Below, piece by piece: positions 7,419-53,819 of a DNA stretch of 64,000 nucleotides (positions within the stretch are counted from its first letter, which is position 1; each line of letters opens with the position of its first letter). The stretch spans positions 10,974,001 through 11,038,000 of the forward strand of contig CM060188.1 in assembly GCA_030549335.1 (NCBI GenBank). Direction: 5' to 3'. Position numbers and translations under genes: made by a program. The notes beneath the pieces are model-generated. The model saw only the letters and a program-made list of their open reading frames with translations. It was not told where the DNA came from and made no database searches. Source of the stretch: Pontederia crassipes. Its lineage: Eukaryota; Streptophyta; Magnoliopsida; Commelinales; Pontederiaceae.

Positions 7419-7761
7419 AGCGTCATTTGGTCGTAGAATAAGTGATTGAATAAATATTTATTTCGGAGAATATCATTAAACGGAGGTCAGAATCAAAATA
7501 AGGCACGACAAATGAATGCACGACATTCAAAGTGTGTTTGCATCTAAAGCGTGTTTAATCTTTTCGGGGGTTCTTTTTTATGAGTTATGATATTCAAATA
7601 AAATAGTGGAATAAAATTTATTCATCTAACACCTTTTGTTTAACACACAAAAATGATAACAACGGTCATTTTGTTGAGAAATATTGCGCGTCATCAACTT
7701 GAATAATTCGTATGCAGAGAATAAAGCTGAATATTCCATCTATCCGCAACCAAACATCACC
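7419..7761. mobile_element. PIF/Harbinger-type MITE (343 bp)
   Basis: The ends are AGCGTCATTTGGTCG on the left and, reverse-complemented on the right, GGTGATGTTTGGTTGCGG. They are flanked by TTA on both sides (7416-7418 and 7762-7764). A 3-bp TTA duplication and a TTTGGT core in the terminal repeats are typical of Tourist-like MITEs. There is no coding capacity. Confidence 0.65.
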
Positions 7762-7919
7762 TTAAACATTAAGAAGAATACTTATTTGTTAGTAATCTCT
7801 TTTTTATATTATATATTTTATACCACCATTTTTCATTTTTAGTCACCACTATATATAGTATATTGGAGTGGCATTAGTGATAATGAGCTCAAATAAGAAA
7901 TAACTTACTGCAAACTTAA

Positions 7920-8286
7920 CCAGGTCAAGTCCCGTTGCCCATATGGTCAACAAATTCGACCCAACACAATTTAATTCGGATTGCCTGATCACTTTTTTTT
8001 ATTTTTTTATTTTCCCCTTACTTATGAAAAATATTATTTAGCACAATATCGAAATATTATTTCCATATAGAATGATTTATTTTATTTTTTAAAATTCTAA
8101 AATAAGTATAGAATTAAAACTAAGTAAATAAATAAATAAAAATAAAAAAATTTAAGTCTTTGGATCGGGTTGACATGAGTTGAGAATCCGTACCCGATCC
8201 AAATCCCTATTGAGTTGGGGTCGGATGTAATCCGACTATCAATCCGACTCGAACTAAGTTAGATCGGTCCGGTGAACACCTCTAAT
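7920..8286. mobile_element. Possible remnant of a hAT-type MITE
   Basis: The right end 'ggtgaacacctct' and preceding 'gatcggtccg', 'aatccgactcgaact' resemble the element at 43.6-44.05 kb. The left terminal repeat is not recognisable, so this is either truncated or too old to delimit. Confidence 0.3.
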
Positions 8287-8289
8287 TCC

Positions 8290-9150
8290 ATATTTGACAG
8301 ACCTCTCGATATAAATATTCAATTTTTTTAATAGCCAGCCCTACGTACATGGAAAATGGTGTTGGATTTAACATGTGCCGTACGGTTTACAAGTTAAAAA
8401 TTGGTCTACATCAAACTCGATTAATTCAATAACGTCGTTTCCTAAATATTTCAATTTTCCAAAATAGATGAGTTAGATGCCATTAATCCCGGACACACCA
8501 GCGGTCCCAAGCGAAGTGGGTGCCAAAAAGAATTAAACATATGGATCTTAAAAAAAAAAACTTTATCTGATCTCCCAATTAAGTGCATGTGTTTTGAGTT
8601 TGGTACCAAAATCTTAAATCATATGAATCTCTTATCTCATTTTTTATTAAGTTTTCATATCTTTTTATTTTTAATGCCAAAGGAGCAAATACAAATTGAA
8701 ATAAGATAGACTAAAGATTTTTAGGAGAGTAAGCAAGCTATCGGAAGCGAAACCTTAGAAGGAAATTCGTATACCTAGATGCAAATTGCTAACATACTTT
8801 TCAAAGACAAAAAAAAAGAGATAAAATTGAACACACGAGTTACTATAATAATGAACAACATAAACATATAAATTTTAACTGCCCATTATTCTTTTAAGTG
8901 GTTCATTACCATTTTATTCAATATAAAGTCATCTTATCGACAACATGAACCACGAATAACGATCAAGCACGCTAAACATTGAAGGCTTTACGGGTAAATG
9001 TGAACCATCGTCAATAGACCAGTATGACTTCTCTTTTACTTACCTATTTACCAGACATCTTCCACAAAAATACGCAAAAAGACTATGGATCTTGAAACAA
9101 ATGCTATTAGACAAGAAAGCATGCCAGCGACTCAGCGAAGTGACAAGGTT
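8290..9150. other. AT-rich intergenic region with the 3' flank of the UXS gene
   Basis: No gene is recognised. The part nearest 9155 is the likely 3' untranslated region and polyadenylation region of the UXS gene transcribed leftwards. Confidence 0.5.
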
Positions 9151-9154
9151 GGCA

Positions 9155-12100
9155 TTAATTGTTCTTCCTTGGTGCACCCAATCGATGGCGGAAATCATCT
9201 TCCATCAACAGCAAGCCCTCACGTAACTTGATCTTCGGATCCCATCCAAGCACTTCCTTAGCCTTTGTGATATCTGGCTTCCTCTGCCGTGGATCATCGG
9301 GCGTGTTCTCAACAGTCTTCAACTCCACAGCCGGATTAGTTAACTGAACAAGTGATGAAAGAAAATAGTTAAGCATTCTATGGAAGCTGAGATCATTATT
9401 GCCTGTTTACATTGTATCGAGCTAATATTCTGACTGTACTAACCTCTTTCACAGTTTCCGCAAGTTCCATTATAGTAAATTCACCTGCATCATGCATGTT
9501 TATGTAAGAAACAGAAAACGAGTACTGCCTTTTCACATATCATAATAGGACTGCCTTTCACAATCGGTTTCATGAGGAGGAAAAAGAGACAATGTATTCA
9601 CGACACTCTATCTTGGAATATTACTTAAGGCAAGTAGAAAAGCAAATATCAATGCAATATATGAATGATGCAAAACGAATCACCTGGATTTCCCAAATTA
9701 ATTGGTCCAGTTTGTTCTCCTTCCATCAGCCGAATAAGACCATCGACCTTCAGCATTCACAAGACGTTTAAAACAAATCGAAAAATAAATAAAAAACTAT
9801 ATATTGGAACTGTAGGGTAAAAAGAACGCATAAATACCAAATCAGAAACATAACAAAAGCTTCGTGTTTGTGTTCCTGGCAATTGCACTGTCAATGATTC
9901 ACCACTGTATGCAGCATAATGAAGTAGTCAACAAAGAGAATTACTGTGTGACAAGAAAAGGACAGGAAAGAAAGCAATATAACTTTGGTCAAAGCCAAGA
10001 AAACTACCAGGATAACATTATGAATATAAGTCAATTACCGAATTGCTTGAGCAATAAAGTTGCTGACAACACGACCATCATCAATGTTCATCCGTGGTCC
10101 GTATGTATTGAAAATCCTAGCGATTCGGATCTCTGCATATGGAATGAGTAAAAAATGCTCACATGGAAATAATAAAACATATGTGGAGGGTAGTGAAATT
10201 GCCTCATTAATCTCACCTAAACCATGCTGCCTGTGGTAATCAAACATCAAAGTCTCTGCAACACGCTTACCTTCATCATAACAACTTCTGACACCTAAAT
10301 GAAGAAACAATGAAACGGTGGTTCAAAAGCTTCACGCTTCACTGCTGACATTTAAATACTGCAGGTGCGCTATGGAATATCTTTAATAGCCAGAATACAA
10401 GGACGTTGAGTTGAACAAAAATCAATGCCAGCATAAAGATGCATGTTATGAATCTCTAGATTTTTTCAATTTTATATTATTCATTCACTTTCTTATCTGG
10501 TAATGCAGTTCCACCCATCTAAGCTTGTCATAACGTTAGAAGATTCAAAATAACTTCCCCTGCTTACATCCAAATACCTACTGACCAATTATCATACCCA
10601 AAATTATTCACGAGTGGGTGAAGCCATCCTTTTTTTTTTCTTTTTCTTTGATCAATCTTTTGCAAACTCCGCCTATGTTTTATAGCCGGTCCCAAGCCCG
10701 GATAAAGGAGGAGGGTTGTGTTAGGCCCCGACAGCCAGCGTAAAATCCTGTCGAATCTCATGAACATGGATCAACGAATGAGCGGAATGGCGTCGTATGA
10801 TCCATGTAGCCGACCCCACCTAGTGGGATAAGGCTTTGTTGTTGTTGTTGTTGTTGTTGATCAATCTTTTGCAAAAAAAAATGCACTAGGAAATTTGCAT
10901 AGGATAACAGACAAATTTTTTATTAGAAAATTGACTATTTGAGTTATCCAGTACATTTTCTATGCTTTGTCCTACCTAAAATTTTTGAGGTAGGGTCAGA
11001 GAAAATAGGCTTAATGAGATCACACTAGTACCATCTCTAACATACACAAAGGATGTTTTGGGATCTATCAGAAGACATCACATACAACATAGTTTCTAAC
11101 TGAAGGAGGCAGAATAATGAATGTAAAGATCACAATAACAAGACAAGTGAGAAAAAAATAGCCCCATCAACTGCTAAGTAAATTATCTACCAATTGGATT
11201 AACATTGCCCCAGTACTCTTCTTTTTGAGGATGCTCAAGAGGATCACCATAAACTTCTGAGGTTGAGGTCAGTAAGATCCTACGAGAGAAGGGGGAAGGA
11301 GTTAGTGTGATGCGTTCTCTAGAAAAGAAGATGATTAAAGATATCATGCATTTACTACCTTGCTCCAACCCTCTTAGCAAGTCCCAGCATGTTCAATGTT
11401 CCGATAACATTTGTTTTTATTGTCTGACACAACAGATATCATGCCATCACTTTCAGGACCATCGAGGATAAATTATGAATAAAAGAGTTACACGATGGTA
11501 TGCAAGAACATGGGATCTGATTTTGTAGAATAATTATGGTTGGATACTGCGTAGTTAAATTTACATGAATAATAACACACCTTGACAGGGTTATACTTGT
11601 AGAATATTGGAGAAGCCGGGCAAGCCAGATGATATATCTGATCAACCTCTACCAATAATGTCTCGGTAACATCTAATAATAAAAGAAACAAGTTACAATA
11701 TGGAAATACTGAAAGTTCTTTGCAGCACGTGTCTTTTTGTAGGCAACTTGGGAACATCTATGAAAAATAAATGCAGCACATTTAAGCGCTGAAAACAGAT
11801 CATAAAACTAGTTTTGGAGGAAAGAAAACATGTTACTGAACAAGATACAATCCAAAGAATTTGCAAAACAAGAATGATTACAGCTGAATAGTCTCCACGG
11901 ATGCTGTTCCTTTATAAGTCTAGAATCAAAGAAAAACTTTTAACAATGGCAAAGTTGTCAAGCAGTAAAAGTTAGGTGCCTCTGTACAGATCAAGACTCC
12001 TCGTTAAATTTTGGTTATTGGACTTGATAATCTAGATAAGATACAATGAAACTTTACATTTCATATTCACAGTCCATCCAAGTACCAATCTAGAGAAAAA

Positions 12101-19992: not shown

Positions 19993-22454
19993 TTAATATT
20001 CTTCATCATCACGAGGAAAAGAATCCAAATTAAAATCCAATGCTTCAACATTATCTTCTTGCACATCACCTAACCAAAACATATAAAAAAGTTACAATAA
20101 AATTCAAAATAATTAATCATTCAAATACTTTAAAATGAAAATTAAATTTTACCTTCATGATTGATATTCTTTGAAACTTCCAAATATGTATAAATCATTT
20201 TCTCTATTTCATCATAATCAAGTAATGGAGTGTCATCTTCCTCTGCAATCCATGATTCAATCTTCTCCATGCTCTCATAGTCAATAGGATCTAAAAGTGC
20301 TTTCTCTTTGTTAAGAGCCCTATAAATATAACAGAATAAATAAGCATGTTTTTAAAAAAGAATAGATACACATACATTTTTGTAACAAACCTATTTTTCA
20401 AACCTAAATTATAATGAATATATACAAGATCATTTAATCTTTTGTGCTCTAATTTGTTTCTTCTTTTTGAATGTATTCTTTCAAATGCACTCCAATTTCT
20501 TTCACAACCAGAAGAAGATGTCATTTGACTTAACAATCGAATTGCCAATTGTGACACTAATGGAGTACTAAATCCAAAGTTATGCCACCATTGATCTATC
20601 ATGCAAACAATATAAAGAAAGTTAAAAAATATCATAACTCTAAGAAAATTATTAACAAAAATTAAGAAACTTAGAAACTTACTGGGTCTCAATTTCTTAG
20701 CCGTCTCAATAGCTAAGTGATTACTAAAACTTTGTAGTCGATCATGATACAACCAACTTTGTTTTCAAAATTCAGTCTTGTGATTTGTAACAAGAACATC
20801 CAACACTTCAAGCCATCCTTGTTGAACCTCAGGTTTTATACAAAAGGTGTCTTTATCATAATAGAATGCGGGATTCAAAAAATATGCAGCATAATGAATA
20901 TTTTTTCGAAGTTGATTATTCTATCTTTGCTTGATGATTCTTGTATAAGGCTTGTACAAAGATTTTCTATTCATCAGTATTCTTTTAATGATTTTCTTTG
21001 CTCTATAAATGCCATCATACACATATCCAAGAGAAGGTCTATCATCACCATCAACAATTCTTAATAAACGAACCAAATGTGATACAATTTGCACAATAAT
21101 ACCACAATCATTCCAAAATTTACTATCCAAAACAACATTCATAACAATCTTAGCTTTCTTATCACGATAATATCTTGAGCTTGTAAAATCCACACTTGTC
21201 ACCAAAACTTGCAAATCAAGTTTATGATCACTGATACACATTAATGCAATAAATGTTATTGCAAAATGAGTTGGTTCGGGACGTAAAATTTCAGCCCACT
21301 GTGATCTTTTTCTTAACCACGCAAGCAAAAAAGGATGATTATAAACAAATTGTGTTACCTTAGATGCTTTTTCTGTTAAGCTCTTCACAAACTTCATTTT
21401 GTCAATATCTGCTAAGATCAAATTCAGACAATGAGCAGCACAAGGAGATCAAAAAATGGAAGAAAACTTTTCATTCAACAACCTACCAACAGCTTTATAA
21501 TTTGCAGCATTATCAGTAACTAAGTGCACAACATTAGAAGCTCCAGCAAATTCAACCAAGTCCACAAATAAATTGCAAAGAGTTGTAGCATCCTTAACAA
21601 CATCAGAAGCATCAACTGATCTGACAAAGTAAATTCCTTTTGGAGAGTAAATAAGAAAATTTATTAGCTGTCTATTTTTTTGATCTTGACAACCATCGCC
21701 CATAATAGTGCAATCAGTTTCTTTCAAAGCACTTCTAAATGTTTCAACCAACATTCAAACTTCCTTCTTAATGTCATACAATAATTTGGTTCTAATGGAA
21801 TGATAAGAAGGTCCTATATATCCTGGACCAATAGTTGCAATAACATCTATCATAAGTTGATAATAAATGTAATTGGCGCAATTAAATGAAATACAACAAT
21901 CATAAAAGAATCTAGCGAGCCAAATCAGCTCGATGTATAGCTTCTTTACTTGTCAATGCACTTTTAATAGAAGGTTGTGCACCTGGAGTGGTTCTTGGAG
22001 CAAAGAAACTATTTATTATCTCTTTGCCCTTCCCCTTAGCTTGACTTAGAATAATTGGAGTTTCTTGACTTTGCAAAATATGTGCATTCATATCTGATTG
22101 CTCACTAGAATTATCTGCTCCTCTTTGATCAAGTGCTCTTTTTTTGGATGCAGACGTAGATTTTAGAAGTTCTCCAAGTTGATATTGCACGTCATAGCTA
22201 ACTTTTGTACAAGCCAATACATCACCTTTTTGTCCTGCAAGATGCATTTTCATCCTATGTATTCCCCCACCTTTGAAAATCTTTGCACAATATAAGCATT
22301 TCAAAACTTTCTTTCCTTCTGTGTCATAACAAATTTGACAATGCTCCCACGTAGGATCAGACTTTAATCTAACTGACTGAGTGCTTGCAACTACCGATTG
22401 AGTGCTTGCCGCAATTGATTGTGATTCACCAGCACTACTTCCACCCGATGCCAT
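19993..22454 (-). pseudogene. hAT transposase (BED finger, DUF659, dimerisation domain), decayed
   Basis: The reading starts at 22454 with MASGGSSAGESQS. A BED-type zinc finger follows (CQICYDTEGKKVLKCLYC ... H..H, about residues 40-75). The frame then meets a stop near 21912 with a frame change beyond it. The DUF659 part (TIMGDGCQDQKNRQLINFL, VTDNAANYKAVGRLL) lies at 21754-21449, with a TGA at about 21449 where the family has Trp. Next comes the RNase H-like part (CAAHCLNLILADIDKMKFVK, 21440-20921). The C-terminal dimerisation segment (SSSGCERNWSAFERIHSKRR, LNDLVYIHYN) is at about 20600-20400, and a last short exon ends FPRDDEEY at 19993. Several introns are likely in the C-terminal half. 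At least two disabling changes mean no functional enzyme is expected from this copy. Confidence 0.85.
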
Positions 22455-23619: not shown

Positions 23620-24640
23620 AGAGAAATTCTAAAAGAAAAAAACAATAGGTTTGAAAAAAATAAAACGTAAAAAAAGATTGCAAATAAAAAAATTTGAACA
23701 TTGGCATGGTTCCACTAGGAACTACGTGACTACTGATTCCCGCAGTTCCAACCTCGGGTTCTAGTGTTGGTTCCGCTAGATGTCGCATTATATGACAAAA
23801 TCAATTGGAACTAAGGCCAAGTTCCAAGAAGTTCTCCCCGCCAAACGCTATCCGGAGTCATCTACAAGATAATTCAGAAAAATATTTTTTTGAGTCCTAA
23901 ATATTATAGATAGTTTTAACTTCTTTGTAATTTTAATTATCACCTTAGTGATAGTACAAATATAATACAAGAAGCCTCTATTCAAATTATCAATTTGGTG
24001 AAATGCATATTGACAAAAGATATTCATTCTATCAAATTTATTTTTTAAAATCATTGGGATGAATATATTCAATTTGTTCTATATTTCTTTGAACATTGTA
24101 AGAAAAACATGTGATCTTAACTGTCTTTCTTTTATCCATATCAACTTTTATATCTTTTGTTCTGATTATAAATAATAATATGTAATAAATCTTAAATTAT
24201 TTTATAGGTATTCCAATATTTTATTCAATTATTTTAATCATAATTTATATTATTAATACTTATCAATACTATAATGTGATTTTGTCAATTTATTTTAATG
24301 AATTATATTATTAGTTAATTAAAACAACAACGCGCTTAAAAATTTATCACACAAACTTTTCTAAAAAATCTAAATTTCTTGAATTAGTCGAGATTATAAG
24401 ATTTTTCTAATGTAAATACTAACCTTAAAAAATGTTTTAGATCAATAAAACATCAAGACTTTTTTTGAAATGAAAGATGCATGTCTAGTGGCATAAATTA
24501 TAGAGCAAATCCATGCTTATTGCTCATTTGAATTATTGAACATATATACTAACCTAAGGTAACTTTCAAAGTGGGAGTATTGATGCACACATTTCAATGA
24601 AAAAAATGTTACAACTCTCCAAAAAGACCATTTCTCTTTA
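23620..24640. other. AT-rich intergenic region
   Basis: No gene or delimitable element was recognised. Confidence 0.5.
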
Positions 24641-26337
24641 TAGTTACTAGTATATATCCCGCACGTTGTGCTGGCCATAAAAAATAGTGATATATTTAAT
24701 TAAAATTTTATATAAATAATCATTAAAAATTTTAAAAATACTAATATTTATATATATTATTTTTATATGGGGTTAATTCTTAATCCATTGTCTGTTCTGT
24801 TAGAAATAACAAAGAATAAGGTCTTCTCATTTTTAGTCTACCCAACACATTATATTCTCTCAAATGATCATAGAATAAGTTAACTTGGTTGAATATCATT
24901 AATATAAGTTAAGGAATTTGATATAAGAATTATATGACTAACTTTTTATTTATGAAATAAATAATTATTTTTTTTCTGAAAAAAATAATGCTTCAGCAAA
25001 ATGCAAAATAAAATTTTAATTTGATTTTTGTATATAGATTTATTTTTATTAATTAACAATTATGGTAATCTAAGATTAAATAAAACATAGATTTCCATTG
25101 ATATATAACTGACATATAATAATAAATCAGATAGATTTTATATTATTAATCAAATGTAATATAGTATTAATTTTTCTTCATTTTTTGGGTAAGTTCTTTT
25201 AATCTATTAGTTACCTCTTGGGTGTATATTTATTTTGACACTTACAACAACTGTTTAGTTGTTTTAATTATTGAAATCATTTATCATATTTTGGTACCAG
25301 AAGATGAAATAAGTCATATACTTCAATTGTTACAACTTCCTCTTATATGAAAATAAATCTAATCGATAGTTTTTTATTTTATTAACTGAATGTTAGTATT
25401 ACCTTTTTTTCAATTTTGGGTACATTGTTTTATGTGTATATTTTTTTCTATCAGTTACCTAACAGGTGTATATTTATTTTATTCAGTTACTTCAATTCTG
25501 TATTTGATTAGTTCATTATTTAAATAATTTGAAAACACCTCGTTGATGCCAAGCGAGTCATCAATCAAACCATTTGTTTGATATTTTTTAAATTATTATA
25601 ATTTTATCTTTCAGTGCCTAATGAGTATATTGAAATCAAATAACTACCCATAATCTACCCGTTATCTAATGAGTGTTCAAAATATTCCCAATCATTATTA
25701 TGTTATTATTAATTATACTTGTATAACCGTATAAACATAAAGACGTATAGTTATGTAACTCTATAGATAATAAAACTACATCGTTATTATATAATTATCA
25801 TATTTTATAATCATAATTGATACTTTATTGAAGTCATAATTAATATTTTTGTCAACACTCATTGATGCCAATAGTAGCATACATATAGATAGATATACAT
25901 AAATATGCAGATAAATAATTTTCATCAATAATTCATATCTTATTTTTTTATTAGATATAACATTTTATTATTATGAAAAAAGTATTCTTATTTAAATATA
26001 ATGTGAATATTTATTCTCTTTGTATGAAATTATTCTTTTAATATAGTAATATGTTACATATATTATATTTACCAATTATCATGTAAACTTATATTTCATT
26101 TCAATATTTTTGTAATGAATTATTAATGAAATGTATTATTAGTTAACTATAGTTATTCTTTTTATTGGTTTATATCATTTCATTATGTTTATTACACCTA
26201 TAATTTTTTTTAATTTTATATTAATACTTTTTCTACATCTAAGTTATTTTTTTCGATCTAGTCCCATCGATATTCAGAACTACAAATGCATGTAACCCAG
26301 ACTTCAAGGACCGAAAAATATATTTATAAATTCATAT

Positions 26338-26393
26338 ATATATAAATATATATATATATGATTATGTATATATATATATATATATATATAATA
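26338..26393. repeat. AT dinucleotide-rich tract
   Basis: Interrupted (AT)n runs inside Helitron A. Confidence 0.8.
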
Positions 26394-27416
26394 GTACTAT
26401 ATACTATATTGACCTAACATCATGAATATTACTTTTTTTGATAATTAAAGGTGCAAAAGAATAAAACTTTGTACATTTACAGAAAAATTAAATATAATAT
26501 AAAAGCTTTTTTAGGCTCTAATATCAATGGATGTAAATGTATATTTAGAAATATCGCACAGCAAACTATACAAAATTTATCATCTGCATTCCAAATTTTG
26601 GACGATAGTCATAAGCCAAAAATCCGATATAGCTTTAGCATAAAAAATACCTCACACTTGTAGCATGACTTTGACATTATATTAAGTTCCACCGATGCAC
26701 AACACACTTCAGAAAAATATGCCACTTTATAAAATGCCTACTTGTTAAAATAGCAAATCTAGTTTGTGTGCACATATAAACAAATGTGCCACCATCTCTT
26801 TATGTAGTTGTCTATAAGGGTAGTTATATGAACTACTTTCATATGCACGTAACTGGTATTAACATAACTAATGACTGCAGTTGTATATTCAAATAACATG
26901 TTTAAGTTTAACATAATTATTTTTTGAAGACGTGTGCTGGATTTATGCATTTTCCAAATAGTATTTTCTCCACGCTTTTGACAATCCATAAAAAATGAAT
27001 TATTAATTTAGCTTTAATCAATTGTTACTTGAGGATACGTAACAATTAACATATTTACCAAGTATCATTTTCTTCATGCTTACTATTTCTTCAATATAAT
27101 ATATAGACATAAAGTGAGATTACTTTGGTTTTCATATAGCCTAAATATAAATACATATACATATGGCTGTTAAATTATATTCGAATTAGATTTATATAAT
27201 AGCTTCCATAATAATAAAAAATATTAAAATATTTTATTAATTATCAAATACCATTATGTCTATTGAACGGTTAAGGATAGTTATTATCCACTACTATAAT
27301 AACATTATATAATTAACAAAGATAATTATAACAAAATTTTCTTACTTGGACACTTGTCAACATAATGTTATGCCAAATGTCACTTTCTCATGCAAAGTAC
27401 TCTCTCTTTAATATAA

Positions 27417-30400
27417 CTAGTGTAGAGCTCGCACGATGTGCGGGTGATGCAAAAAATGTGTCATGATTAATTATAATTTTATATTTCATTTAAATTAATA
27501 ATAACATTTATAAGAATAGAAACTAATTATTTTTTCTTATTAACTTTAACTTTAGTTATATCATTTGTGAATATTTCGTTCAAAAATAACATATAGAGTA
27601 AAATCTTCGATGTTACAACAAATGTCCAAATACAAAATGAGAAGAAATTACTTTATATCTAAAATAATAAGAAATACATTATGAAATAATAATCTTTATA
27701 ACCTCAATACCATTTTTTGGTCAAACCCCCTCTTAGAATACTTATATTTAACTTTTAGGAGTCCATCATCATCATCATCATCATCATTATTATTATTATT
27801 ATTATTATTGACCATTTTAACATTATAGTTATTTTATATATTGTTCCACAAAATGTCATTCAGTGATATGAGTTAAACTCCGTTAAATTATTAAAATATT
27901 TTATACTGACTATATTTAATATATAAATATATTATATATAATATTGATTATATATATTTTAGAATAAAAAATAGATATAATCAAGCATGTGAACATGTCT
28001 ATTTATCGAAACCTTTTGTCTAGAAGATAATGGTATCCTCTTTGTACTATGTTTCTTATTGTGATACACCACCTCTCATCACCACCACATGCACTATGGA
28101 CACTCCATCAAAGTTAATTTAATCTCTTACATTCAAGACCAACTCATATACGGTATATATGATATAAAATTATCATTTCACTTACTATTAAAAAAATGTG
28201 GAAATTAAATGAAAAGGTCAATAGACTAATTACTTATCAAAATATCATGATATATACACTATAAAAGAGGAATTAATGTTTATATATAAAAAATTAATTG
28301 GTAGGATTCAAGAGTCCATTAAAACAATCCCCATAGTGTTTTAGATAAAAATCACAAATAATATTTATTTGCATCTTTGAAGAAATAAAATAAACAAATA
28401 GAATTAGTTATTTAAATATTTTCCTGATCATGACAATATATTATTCCAATCTTAATTAAGACAAAATTAAGCATATATCTATCATATAAAAATTAAATAA
28501 TAAATAAATAAAACCACTAAAGATTGAATACTCTACCTTCAATTGTCCAAAGATTGGAGCTAAAGAATTTACTTAATGTCTGATTTGTACAAAGGTCTAC
28601 TACTATGAATGCAATTATGAAAAAAGTGAAGAGAGCAGCGGTAATAATTTTCAATTACTATGCAGTTATGGAAGGGTGAAGGAAATAGAGAAAATTAATT
28701 TTCCAAGAAAATTTATTTTCATTATGGGGCAACGTGACACGAATGTTTTTTGTTGATGAGGGTCATACTGTGATAAGCATAGTTAATCAATTTAACATAT
28801 CTGAGCCTAATTGCAAGAAATATGTTATATTATATTATTATCAAATTACCATAGAACCATATGGATAAGAAAGTTATATATTGAAGGCAGTTATATTTTT
28901 ATCATATCTTTTATTCAGTCATCTAATATATATGGTCATTTATCTAATAGATATGATTTATATCCAAATCAAATAAGTACACTCATTGTTTAAGTATTTA
29001 AACTAATTGGTCAATAAAAATATATTTCAATGGAATTCCTCTTTTATTTGTTTTTATATTAGTTAATCTATCTTGAAAGGTAAAAAGGGGTAGAGTAAAC
29101 CTAATTTTTTCGTCGAAATTAATGTCCTCTTCCTCCGCGTGTAGAAAAGGAATAAATAAATCAATTAAATTTCGAGAAGCTTCATAAAGTGCTTCCTTAG
29201 GATATTAATTATTAGGATATGAACATGTGTCATTTATTCAATGTGCCAAATGTCACTCTCTTCTTCAATACTAACCTCCTTTTAATAATATATATAATAA
29301 ATATATAGATAGATAGTCAGAAATTTTTTATCAAAATTTCATATTCATACCGATCTTGTTTTAATTTGAATTGTATCTTGATGACCAATGAAAGTTTAGT
29401 TGAAGAGTATAGGAAGCCATAACTAAATTGTAATAGTAAAATCACCATTATAACTGAAGTAATTTAATATTGCATATTAGTTAATCTATTCATCCACCAT
29501 TTATATAACTCAATAATATGACCGTAAAAATAAAAATAATTAATTAGAGGAATAATATTAGAATATGCATAAGCAATATCTTAAAAAAAGGAAAAAAATA
29601 AGCAAGAAAACCTAAAGGCACACAAAAATTCATACATATTATTGTCGTTATTTTTATTTACATACATATTTTCTCAATTATTTAATTAATTATCTATATT
29701 TTGGTTGTTTAGTATACATTTCGTAGTTAGATAAATGTAATATTTATTAGAGAGTAGGTGAGAAAAGTAGGCGCAACTAACATATATTAATCTACTATTG
29801 TTAATATGATAAAGGAAAAAGTGGATGGCTTAGAATTTAAAATAATTATCCATCTAAATAATTTATTTGAAAATCAATTTTGTTAACACCACAGACCGAT
29901 CCCTTATTCTATCAACTAAAACCATACTTATAGAATAATGGTAATTTATTCATGGTGAAATCCATAAATTTGATTAAAAATAATTTTCCAAGTAAATAAT
30001 GATAAAATAAAATTTGTTAATAGGATCCCTTATTCTATCAGTTAAACAAAAGAAAAAAAAATCCACTAAAATAAAAATAAGCAAGTGTCACACACAATAA
30101 AGTAATAATAATAATTTGAAACAACAATGTTAAATTCAAATTGTTTAAGGCAACCCATCATGCTTAATTTGAAAACAAAATGTTTAGCAACAATAATAAT
30201 ACATTACTTTACAAAGAAAATAGAAAAAAGAAAATAATATGAAGATTATTTACCATCCGATTTGTGGGATCAAACCTGTTGAAAAAAATAAGTCATTTAA
30301 TATAATTATGCAATTAAGTCATATGATAAACATGAAACTTCTAAAATAGGATTATATATCAATTAGATAAAAAAAGGAATTACTTAGGTAAATCATAACA

Positions 30401-31366
30401 TTTTTCATTATAAACATATGATGACTAATTAATTGCTAAAGATAAAAACTAAGAAATAATTAGATAGTAAACTACAAAGGAAATGCATTAGGAAGAAAGA
30501 TTCTCATCAGAAGAAAAAAAGAATAGGGAGGAACATATATTCAATAGATTTCCTTGGTATTTATAAGGAAGGCATTTCATGTAAGAACCAACCATGAAAG
30601 AAACGGTTCCTAAATAACCATCTAATGTATAATTAGTAACTAATCATCTACTAAAATGATTATGATAGATGAGCGTATTCAAATTTTAATTGACTATTTT
30701 GTTTTTAATTTAATTTATCTATAAACAAATACTATACTGGATGGTTATGAATAGTTTTAACCACCACTCTAATAAAATATAATTTATATAATTAATGAAT
30801 CTTTGAACTACTTATTATAATGGTTTAATATTACTTTGTGATATGTTTATTCAAATAAGTAATAGAAATAATTATAACATTCGATGATTACCAACAATCC
30901 ATGTAATATTGAATTATCCATGCTAATTATTTGTAATATTTACTTATTTTATAAACATATGATTCATCTAATTTTTCACTATTATTGAAATAATCATATT
31001 TTAAATAAATTAATATAATAATTGATTATAATTAACAATTTCATAAAATAGATGTCAAATTATTTTTAAATTTTGTTATAAATTAACTTTGTATGATATT
31101 TTTATTTATTTATTATTTTTTAAATCATTTTGTCTCTAATAATATTATGTTATTATAAATTGTAGTTACTATATATGTATATATAGTTATTTAATATGTC
31201 CTTTATAAAAGTTACTTATTTGTACGGTTATCACACATTCTAATTATCATACATATTATTTAATATTATAATACTTGATATATTTGGTTGAGGACACATG
31301 GCATCATATCTTGATGCCAAATGTGAAATTCTCATGCAAAGTACTCTCTCTTTAATATAATATAGA
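27417..31366 (-). mobile_element. Helitron B, nested in the 5' end of Helitron A (3950 bp)
   Basis: On the minus strand the 5' end is TCTATATTATATTAAAG from 31366. The 3' end is the hairpin CGCAC-ATC-GTGCG (27430-27442) followed by CTCTACACTAG ending at 27417. The 5' ends of A and B share the words 'ttaaagagagagtactttgc' and 'catttggcat', so they are one family. The sequence just before B (TCTATA) and just after B (TTATATTAAAG) rejoin to give a second copy of the family's 5' terminus. This places B's insertion between A and T, six bases into A. No Rep/helicase coding region is seen. Confidence 0.75.
27763..27810. repeat. (ATC)n(ATT)n compound microsatellite
   Basis: About eight ATC units run into about seven ATT units, inside Helitron B near its 3' end. 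Confidence 0.9.
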
Positions 31367-31372
31367 TATAGA

Positions 31373-31971
31373 TTCTACATGTGGTTAAATACATTATGCA
31401 TATTTTCTTCTAAGTTCATTGTCTTTAGAAAATCAGCATATGATTACATATTATGAAAGTGGAAATATGAATGAGATGAACAATTGGAGACCCCATCAAA
31501 GGTACACAACGTCTTTTACTCGATTTGTCAATATTATAAGGGCAATAGCAGATTGATGGCTATCCCAAAAGCTTGTTGGCATTGCCTCTCATGTCATGAC
31601 TTCAATGTTCAAAATAGTCACCAAAATTAACCTTTCTCAATGTGGTGTAATGATCAATAGATAACTCATCCATGACTATAACAAACGTTGTACAATATAT
31701 TGATGGTCTATAATTTTTTTTCCTATTACTATCTCAATGTTCAATTGATTGGTAGTCTATAAATTTTTTGTCTCAATGTTCGAGGACATTGTTCTCAACA
31801 AGCCTAAATCTACTCAAATTGCATCTCTAATTATATTAGGTGAAATATTAACATTGCAAGTACAAGAAAACAAATTAGCAAATCATCTCCATAATGTTAC
31901 AAGTCTAACCTATGCTTAAGTGTCATACTTGCTACAAGTTTATGACCACCTTTGTTTAAGTGACATTATCT

Positions 31972-44612: not shown

Positions 44613-44672
44613 CGATCCGAAAATTAGGCCCCTCATCCAATAGCTGACGACGCTCCAATGCCCTCATATAAG
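44613..44672 (+). promoter_or_regulatory. H2B core promoter: GATCCG motif, CCAAT and TATA box
   Basis: GATCCG (44614-44619) is the core of the plant histone octamer read in reverse. CCAAT occurs at about 44637-44641 and again near 44655, and ATATAAG at 44668-44672 is a TATA-like box about 100 bp before the chosen ATG. The TATA box lies after an upstream in-frame ATG at 44658, which therefore cannot be the main start. Confidence 0.55.
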
Positions 44673-44771
44673 AATTCTGTTTCTGATCCCGTTTCGGTGC
44701 AAAACTTGATCTCTTCGTTCCCCGACTCACCAGCATCTCTTCTCAAATTCCTAGTCCCATCATCGTCGCCG

Positions 44772-45245
44772 ATGGCACCCAAGGCCGAGAAGAAGCCCGC
44801 GGAGAAGAAGCCGGCCGCCGAGAAGGCTCCGGCGGAGGACAAGGAAAATAAGACTGCCACCGCCGGGAAAGGTCCCGCGGAGAAAAAGCCCAAAGCAGGG
44901 AAGCGGCTGCCCGCGTCGAAGGGCGACGCCGGCGCCGGTGAGAAGAAGAAGAAGAAGGCGAAGAAAGGATCGGAGACGTACAAGATCTACATCTTCAAGG
45001 TGCTGAAGCAGGTGCATCCGGACATCGGCATATCGAGCAAGGCCATGTCCATCATGAACTCCTTCATCAACGACATCTTCGAGAAGCTGGCGCAGGAGGC
45101 GTCCCGGCTTGCCCGCTACAACAAGAAGCCCACCATCACCTCCCGGGAAATCCAGACCTCCGTGCGCCTCGTCCTCCCCGGAGAGCTCGCAAAGCACGCC
45201 GTCTCCGAGGGCACCAAGGCCGTAACCAAATTCACCAGTTCATAG
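44772..45245 (+). CDS. H2B: Histone H2B, 157 aa, intronless
   Basis: H2B pairs with H2A in the nucleosome core. The Lys/Ala/Pro-rich plant N-terminal tail ([14 protein letters not shown] ... [11 protein letters not shown]) spans about residues 1-63. The histone fold follows with the family blocks [59 protein letters not shown] and [18 protein letters not shown]; Lys near the C-terminus in AVTKF is the expected ubiquitination site. The frame is open upstream to 44658, but family alignment and the TATA box support the ATG at 44772. Codons are strongly G/C-ending, unlike the AT-rich surroundings, as is common for highly expressed plant histones. The gene faces the H2A gene tail to tail. Confidence 0.97.
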
Positions 45246-53305: not shown

Positions 53306-53819
53306 GGGGTGGTTTGGTGCATTATCAATTTATTTAATAAAAAATTTTGAACACCATTTAAATAGATTACTACTAAAGTTATTGATAAATATTGGCAATA
53401 TAAACAATAACTAAAATAGTTAGAGAACAAATTATCAAAATACCCTTAAAATTTCACATTCTCACATGTAGTATCGTAATAAACAAAGCAAAAATAGAAA
53501 AGTGAATATAGATAAAATAAGATGAGGCAAAACTAAGAAGATATAATATATTTCAAATAATAAAGAAGATATAGTAAATGATAATTATTTACTAATAATA
53601 TATTTAAAAATTTTAAAATAAAAATGTATATTTTTGTCAAATGCATATCAAGCAAGTCTAAAGAAGTCACTTCCCTCGATTACTAGTGAGGTGGTAATTA
53701 AGATTATTAGATCAAATTAAAATTATCGATAAACAATTACAACAGAGATAATGTGGTAGACCTTAAGAATTTTAAATAAAATAATCGATAATATTATATT
53801 ACCTTATACCAAATGACCC
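53306..53819. mobile_element. PIF/Harbinger-type MITE (514 bp)
   Basis: The left end GGGGTGGTTTGGTGCATTAT and the right end, reverse-complemented, GGGTCATTTGGTATAAGG, are flanked by TTA at 53303-53305 and 53820-53822. The core is AT-rich with no coding capacity. Confidence 0.65.

Follow-up and report, generated by a model that had tools for sequence, protein, structure and literature searches.

A Helitron nested at the sixth base of a resident Helitron, and a hotspot for insertion inside Helitron heads of Pontederia crassipes

Helitrons lying in or near other Helitrons have been described before. In maize, composites carrying several 5′ or 3′ ends move as units, but the accessible part of that report gives neither a fixed position inside the 5′ end nor a count of a hotspot (PMC3288121). 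New insertions have likewise been associated with resident Helitrons, but they are placed nearby and no position inside the element is named. For the FoHeli elements of Fusarium and Metarhizium, self-insertion has been proposed as the origin of multiple 5′ termini; one FoHeli4 precedes a partial 5′ end by 2 bp, and a Metarhizium case was read as either a double insertion into a 5′ end or a rolling-circle tandem (PMC5148889). Unlike the elements described here, these are, in the available portion of the report, single cases of non-canonical Helitrons with the target T|A. Here we describe a nested pair of Helitrons in a stretch of 64,000 nucleotides from Pontederia crassipes (assembly GCA_030549335.1, contig CM060188.1, positions 10,974,001 to 11,038,000; hereafter the window), together with the genome-wide junctions that resemble it. 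Nested and multi-headed Helitrons are already known; a quantified hotspot inside their 5′ ends, or heads, was not found in the open-access literature searched, as judged by titles and the beginnings of abstracts.

On the minus strand, positions 31372-24647 of the window consist of two non-autonomous Helitrons, of which one (B) is nested in the other (A). Read on that strand, the flank CATGTAGAA is followed by TCTATA (31372-31367) and then by TCTATATTATATTAAAG, the start of B at 31366. The 3′ end of B reads CGCACATCGTGCG-AGCTCTACA-CTAG (27417), after which the remainder of A begins with TTATATTAAAG (27416 downward), and A itself ends with GCACAACGTGC-GGGATATATA-CTAG (24647) before the flank TAACTATAAAG. 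The sequence TTATATTAAAGAGAGAGTACTTTGCATGAGAA stands directly after B, and TCTATA plus TTATATTAAAGAGAGAGTACTTTGCATGAGAA is the start of B itself; when 31372-31367 is joined to 27416, the product is TCTATATTATATTAAAG. Because the bases before B and the head remainder after it rebuild B's start, A spans 31372-24647 around B. The TCTATA at 31367..31372 is therefore the first six bases of A, split off as a left half-footprint; B (27417..31366) is 3950 bp long, from its 5′ TC through the hairpin to CTAG, and lies between A and T; and the remaining A (24647..27416) runs from head nucleotide 7 to CTAG. The sequence-only reading had placed B six bases inside the 5′ end of A, with the flanking pieces recreating B's exact 5′ terminus, and this proved right to the base. 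Of the 7263 A|T sites that the window has on this strand, 12 are preceded by TCTATA, giving a chance fit at this one place of about 1 in 600, a figure that ignores the additional fit that the head remnant starts exactly at the base after CTAG. We regard it as practically certain that B is nested in A at the step between head nucleotides 6 and 7 (6|7, or offset 6).

Both elements have the termini of canonical Helitrons (TC at the 5′ end and CTRR at the 3′ end), as both begin with TCTATATT and end with CTAG. GTAGAA precedes and TAACTA follows A, TCTATA precedes and TTATAT follows B, and each element thus sits between an A and a T, as had been claimed for the outer and inner borders alike; neither shows a target duplication. 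The hairpin expected roughly 10-15 nt before the 3′ end is perfect in B, where the hairpin scan found CGCAC-ATC-GTGCG followed by a 9-nt spacer and CTAG (27417..27442); in A it is imperfect, lies around GCACAACGTGC ahead of a spacer and CTAG (24647..24673), and was missed by the strict scan. No open reading frame (ORF) of at least 80 aa, and hence no RepHel, which is a mark of autonomous members only, was present within 24647-31372. Since A and B are non-autonomous, the missing RepHel does not exclude them from the canonical Helitrons. They had been called sisters, which is a loose description. The first 38 nt of the two heads are identical, and beyond the first six bases the next 69 nt are about 86% identical. 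The tails are homologous and align over about 68 nt but share 22 of the last 30 nt. Identity of at least 80% over the last 30 nt (24/30) is often used as the threshold for one family, and A and B fall below it.

A search of the assembly (1.13 Gb, 43 contigs) gave 104 matches to the A/B complex among the 40 scored of 1993 candidate places; in the query numbering, q1 is 31372, q7 the start of B and q3957 is 27416. Three clean, two-ended copies of A without B, each with the structure A/TCTATAT...CTAG/T, were found at loci L011 (3009 bp), L012 (2990 bp) and L013 (2521 bp). In all, B-free A-like copies lie on C17 (L009, with a diverged start), C4 (L010, where another tail precedes the head), C11, C5, C13 and C12 (L014, which lacks parts and whose head is broken at offset 4). 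Copies resembling B were met in different contexts: those at L015 and L017 are near-complete, that at L016 comprises about the first half, and those at L026-L028 are shorter. Matches that cross a border of the complex (L010, L015, L018, L023 and L024) extend at most about 93 bases and have a tail before a head, never the other body. A and B, each occurring apart from the other, are therefore separate elements, and B is the later arrival at the window locus, which agrees with the nesting order proposed from the sequence alone; among the scored places the two bodies were nowhere seen as one continuous element.

Each element also contains an inner head, which the sequence-only reading had not mentioned. 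The inner head of A (27021..27107, read from 27107) lies within the part of A common to L009-L013, and that of B (29222..29309, read from 29309), degenerate and of the AAAAGG type, is also present at L015 and L017; in both cases none of 2000 shuffles reached the score, which for B was taken against the A or B head. Because the inner heads are common to copies elsewhere, the two-headed composites probably transposed from the outer head, as is proposed in the accessible parts of reports on maize and Fusarium (PMC3288121, PMC5148889). A direct repeat of about 250 bp, 67% alike, was also noted inside A (window 25040-25530).

Two loci of the search, L010 with another kind of tail and L023 with a B-like tail ending in CTAA, also join a tail to head nucleotide 7, and a genome-wide count of exact matches was therefore made. 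In heads of the main type, a tail ending in CTAR is joined to nucleotide 7 (CTARTTATATTAAAGAGAG) at 22 places, 19 with CTAG and 3 with CTAA, whereas the reversed control gave 0. Inspection of all 22 showed by eye a hairpin-like tail before the joint, imperfect in some, and a Helitron head after it. The junctions fall into 12 tail clusters (80% identity) and 16 head clusters (85%), with L070 and L082 the single pair alike on both sides, and this diversity indicates that most of the 22 are separate events. The joint at nucleotide 5 (CTARTATTATATTAAAGAGAG) occurs 15 times genome-wide, and an exact probe for the joint at nucleotide 10 (9|10), whose right anchor was longer, found none in the genome. 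For a second head type, TCTATACTATATTAAAAGC, the joint at nucleotide 5 was counted 21 times, as against 1 for the reversed control. Exact matching found 213 intact heads of the first type and 247 of the second, and the heads interrupted at these steps amount to 37 of 250 exact heads (about 1/7) and 21 of 268 (about 1/13), respectively, fractions that are rough, the patterns differing in length. Joints at head nucleotide 1 (offset 0; CTARTCTATATTATATTAAAGAG) number 14, 12 with CTAA and 2 with CTAG; they were left out of the nesting count because CTAA/T is itself an A|T step, and they could reflect either insertion behind a tail or coincidence. We have high confidence that, in this genome, Helitrons with a wide range of tails insert at steps 4|5 and 6|7 of the 5′ heads of others. 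The 22 junctions at 6|7 and the 15 at 4|5 support the earlier suggestion that the 5′ end of this family can serve as a target for its own members.

Two loci are noted here for their own structure. At C10:49955000-49980000 (L015, L066, L067 and L078), Helitron tails and heads of one orientation form a chain that looks like repeated nesting; within it, a head remnant of 18 bases runs straight into another head. In the B-like copy at L061 (about 2790-2880; C6:13794800), a Helitron of the second head type seems to be inserted in B's inner head, near an A|T step.

An insertion into a head is expected to leave the severed bases before the inserted head, TCTATA for offset 6 and TCTA for offset 4. Such left half-footprints number 84 (TCTATATCTATAYTATATTAAA) and 126 (TCTATCTATAYTATATTAAA), respectively. 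We paired a left footprint with a right junction when both were on the same strand and the left lay upstream by at most 15 kb; for offset 4, the first 100 of the 126 footprints were used, which reach C13 and so cover contigs C1-C13. At offset 6, 3 of the 22 junctions were paired (window, 3.9 kb; C7, 9.7 kb; C15, 13.4 kb), or 2 of 21 without the window, and at offset 4, 6 of the 26 junctions on C1-C13 (four of the first head type and two of the second), with at least five distinct left ends. The chance expectations are 0.012 for 6-6 and 0.023 for 4-4, the latter on the assumption that the contigs listed make up 75% of the genome. Among the matches listed, mismatched offsets gave no pair on the same strand within 15 kb (6-4 first type, 0; 6-4 second type, 0; 4-6, 0), as against nine matched pairs. 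When the left footprint lay downstream of the right junction, the classes 6-6, 6-4, 6-4 second type, 4-6, 4-4 and 4-4 second type gave 1, 2, 0, 1, 0 and 0, and on opposite strands, in the same order, 0, 0, 1, 0, 0 and 1. Pairing confined to matched offsets is predicted by insertion, but not by clustering or by fusion of a tail to a head.

At C7, the left end reads AATTA/TCTATA/TCTATATTATATTAAAG, the host has another head about 115 bases upstream, and the insert contains a second-type head. The left end at C15 is more complicated, with extra TCTATA-like units. On C12, TCTA before a head and CTAG/TATTATATTAAAG are 3.0 kb apart, and the right ends of a second C12 pair and of a C5 pair were inspected and are true tails. 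The C1 insert may be compound, since another tail lies 0.7 kb before its right junction. Separately, L088 (C15:35044790-35045090) has a head after a run of TCTATA/TCTATATT units, for which stacked footprints or slippage are possible.

The use of steps 4|5 and 6|7 was compared with the target sequence at other Helitron tails. The motif set of 18 flanks was drawn from 23 tails in the fetched loci, less eight, plus three flanks from other reads. In these flanks the step itself tends to be A|T(T/A), and there is a preference for T from +6 to +8 and for A at +10 (17/18) and +11 (12/18). Among the A|T sites of the window, the resulting matrix ranks offset 4 in the top 0.9%, offset 6 in the top 1.1%, offset 9 at 71% and offset 11 at 76%; for the second head type, it ranks offset 4 at 2.5%. 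The ranks fit the counts of 15 at offset 4, 22 at offset 6 and 0 at offset 9, and support the view that the choice of step is set by the target motif, which we consider quite probable. In barley, an asymmetric Helitron target was described that resembles this one, A|T with AAA from 8 bp downstream, and TCTATA/TTATATTAAAG offers it; the accessible part of that report makes no tie to Helitron heads, and the flanks here stress A at +10, not AAA at +8 (PMC5738225). Helraiser in human cells also targets A|T with an AT-rich preference that is strongest on the side of the transposon 3′ end, but in the available portion of the report no preference for resident Helitrons is described, and there is no clustering around donor sites (PMC4778049).

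One could envision other origins for the tail-to-head junctions. They might be internal joints of rolling-circle concatemers, that is, of tandem arrays whose units lack their first bases, and tandem Helitron arrays and head-to-tail joints are indeed mentioned in the accessible parts of two reports (PMC5876387, PMC5148889). A possible example is L064, with two identical 1375-bp units joined as CTAG/TATTATATT and a single TCTA in front. However, precise circles join CTAG to TC and not to nucleotide 5 or 7, at least in the portion of the Helraiser work available (PMC4778049), and CTAG/TCTATATT occurs twice, compared with 19 places where CTAG meets nucleotide 7 and 15 joints to nucleotide 5, with anchors that differ by two bases. 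Moreover, the missing six or four bases in the matched pairs sit at the far end of the upstream element, and the 22 junctions involve a wide variety of tails and heads. We regard concatemers as a very improbable source. As for L064 itself (7454-9901; C6:6329453-6331900), the first unit is 1375 bp long and the second, read for 873 bp, is 98.6% identical to it, which probably reflects a tandem duplication atop a nested insertion; it is not a second nesting, because a single TCTA stands in front of the outer element, and a ladder of TCTA from repeated nesting was rejected there for the same reason. The doubled TCTATA in the window might, alternatively, belong to the lineage of B, with a 5′ end TCTATATCTATATT, A having lost its first six bases earlier or otherwise. 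TCTATA does precede the head in four of seven B-like 5′ ends (window, L015, L016 and L028, but not L017, L026 and L027), the background being 10 of 100 listed heads, the window's included. This explanation needs the loss of exactly B's six extra bases, exactly at the base after CTAG, and C7 shows the same full pattern around an insert whose tail is of a different type. A small tree of the seven B-like 5′ ends did not group the doubled copies (L028 fell with L027, 93/93) and had no fork at the starred level, so that it speaks weakly either way on inherited doubling. We consider this lineage explanation very unlikely.

The question of why heads are struck is distinct from whether they are. Heads might be hit just because their sequence matches the general target motif, the Helitron itself going unrecognised. 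The two offsets that are hit, 4 and 6, agree with the motif, offset 9 misfits it and its probe gave 0, offset 11 also misfits by the matrix, and the barley motif is comparable in what is available of that work (PMC5738225). The frequency of hits is harder to explain in this way. Tails of the type CATCGCGCGGGNNNNNNNNCTAGT, chosen regardless of the flank beyond T, occur at 203 places; among the 100 of these that were listed, four sit inside an exact head at one of the two favoured offsets (4 or 6), and one is at offset 0. The expectation for offsets 4 and 6 among 100 tails is 0.0003 for a flat choice of A|T sites and 0.004-0.006 by the motif matrix, which is small, being built from 18 flanks. 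The two offsets of the main type gain a 16- to 41-fold preference, too little for 4/100 tails; the shortfall is several hundred-fold, though the small model ignores regional clustering. This excess over the motif suggests some other draw of resident heads, and the motif as the whole cause, though possible, seems to us somewhat doubtful. We tentatively propose instead, without holding it to be established, that heads may act as beacons, such that the transposase or the transposon circle would recognise a head in trans and insert 4 or 6 bases inside it where the motif allows. Binding of heads in trans by RepHel would be the simplest cause of such a draw, and local clustering, chromatin and copy survival may share in it.

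Several observations weigh against the reading of these junctions as insertions into resident heads, or against the draw of heads beyond the motif. The junction counts are of exact matches, and the probes differ in the length of the right anchor, that for 9|10 being longer and that for offset 0 shorter. At L078, just 18 head bases follow the joint before another head begins. Within 15 kb, 19 of the 22 offset-6 junctions have no exact left half-footprint, the insert before L010 has none in 9.9 kb, and the majority of the 84 left half-footprints lack an exact right partner; at L015, what comes after the B-like tail is a different sequence. Unpaired junctions would be expected on the assumption that the inserted heads are often of other types or decayed. 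The doubled TCTATA was rejected as the sole proof of nesting, since it is present at L015, L016 and L028, where the search turned up no right junction to match it; as the doubling alone is insufficient, the right-hand junction decides. Of the eight tails dropped from the motif set, seven were head-like by our own list (one doubtfully so) and one did not start with T. Nine of the 18 flanks come from queries running into a head; the other nine agree, with A at +10 in 8/9. AAA at +8 to +10 was present in 2/18 flanks, no more than chance (P 0.2), and since the strong position is A at +10 and AAA is rare, the flanks come close to the barley motif without being identical to it. Finally, the excess over the motif may partly be due to clustering of Helitrons or better survival.

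Taken with these points, the reading that B transposed into a resident A at 6|7, as one case of a genome-wide hotspot in Helitron heads, has in our estimate a probability of roughly 0.9. On this reading, B was inserted at the A|T step that separates nucleotides 6 and 7 in the 5′ terminus of resident A. RepHel transposase supplied in trans would presumably have made the insertion, since A and B encode nothing long, and beyond the motif some feature of the resident head (RepHel binding, an open state or local clustering) might draw insertions to it. The target choice of Helitrons is poorly known, and a hotspot at a fixed phase of the head would tie it to the sequence that starts transposition. 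It would also supply multi-headed elements; A and B are both two-headed, a trait common to their copies. If heads are indeed beacons, they would feed both multi-headed composites and head-to-tail arrays clipped at the 5′ end, and the hotspot suggests another origin for some tail-to-head arrays now taken as rolling-circle products. It might limit the spread of a family, in that each insertion splits a sister's 5′ end, and it can be counted in any plant genome by means of a few short patterns.

The deduced empty site of A is GTAGAA/TAACTATAAAG, with the A at 31373 standing before the 5′ TC on its left side and TAACTATAAAGAGAA (24632..24646) on its right, where A at +10 is as in other target flanks. 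A third nesting level was considered here, because TAACTATAAAGAGA (24646 downward) has TAAAGAGA in head phase. It was rejected: local scores against heads A, B, C and D were equalled by 543, 351, 354 and 1207 of 2000 shuffles, in an anchored test over the 12148 A|T sites in the window, 210 scored as well for A and 77 for B, and the left flank is GTAGAA, not TCTATA. The likeness to a head is thus not significant by either test, and the sequence is now read as an ordinary target. Elsewhere in the window, pieces of a hAT transposon lie on the minus strand at 20291-22454, comprising a BED zinc finger ORF (21912-22454) and a hAT dimerisation domain ORF (20291-20752). On the plus strand, 44658-45245 is a 195-aa ORF that contains a core histone domain and reads as H2B. 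Outside A, an inverted similarity of about 147 bp (71%) between 24127-24268 and 53380-53520 represents a repeat.

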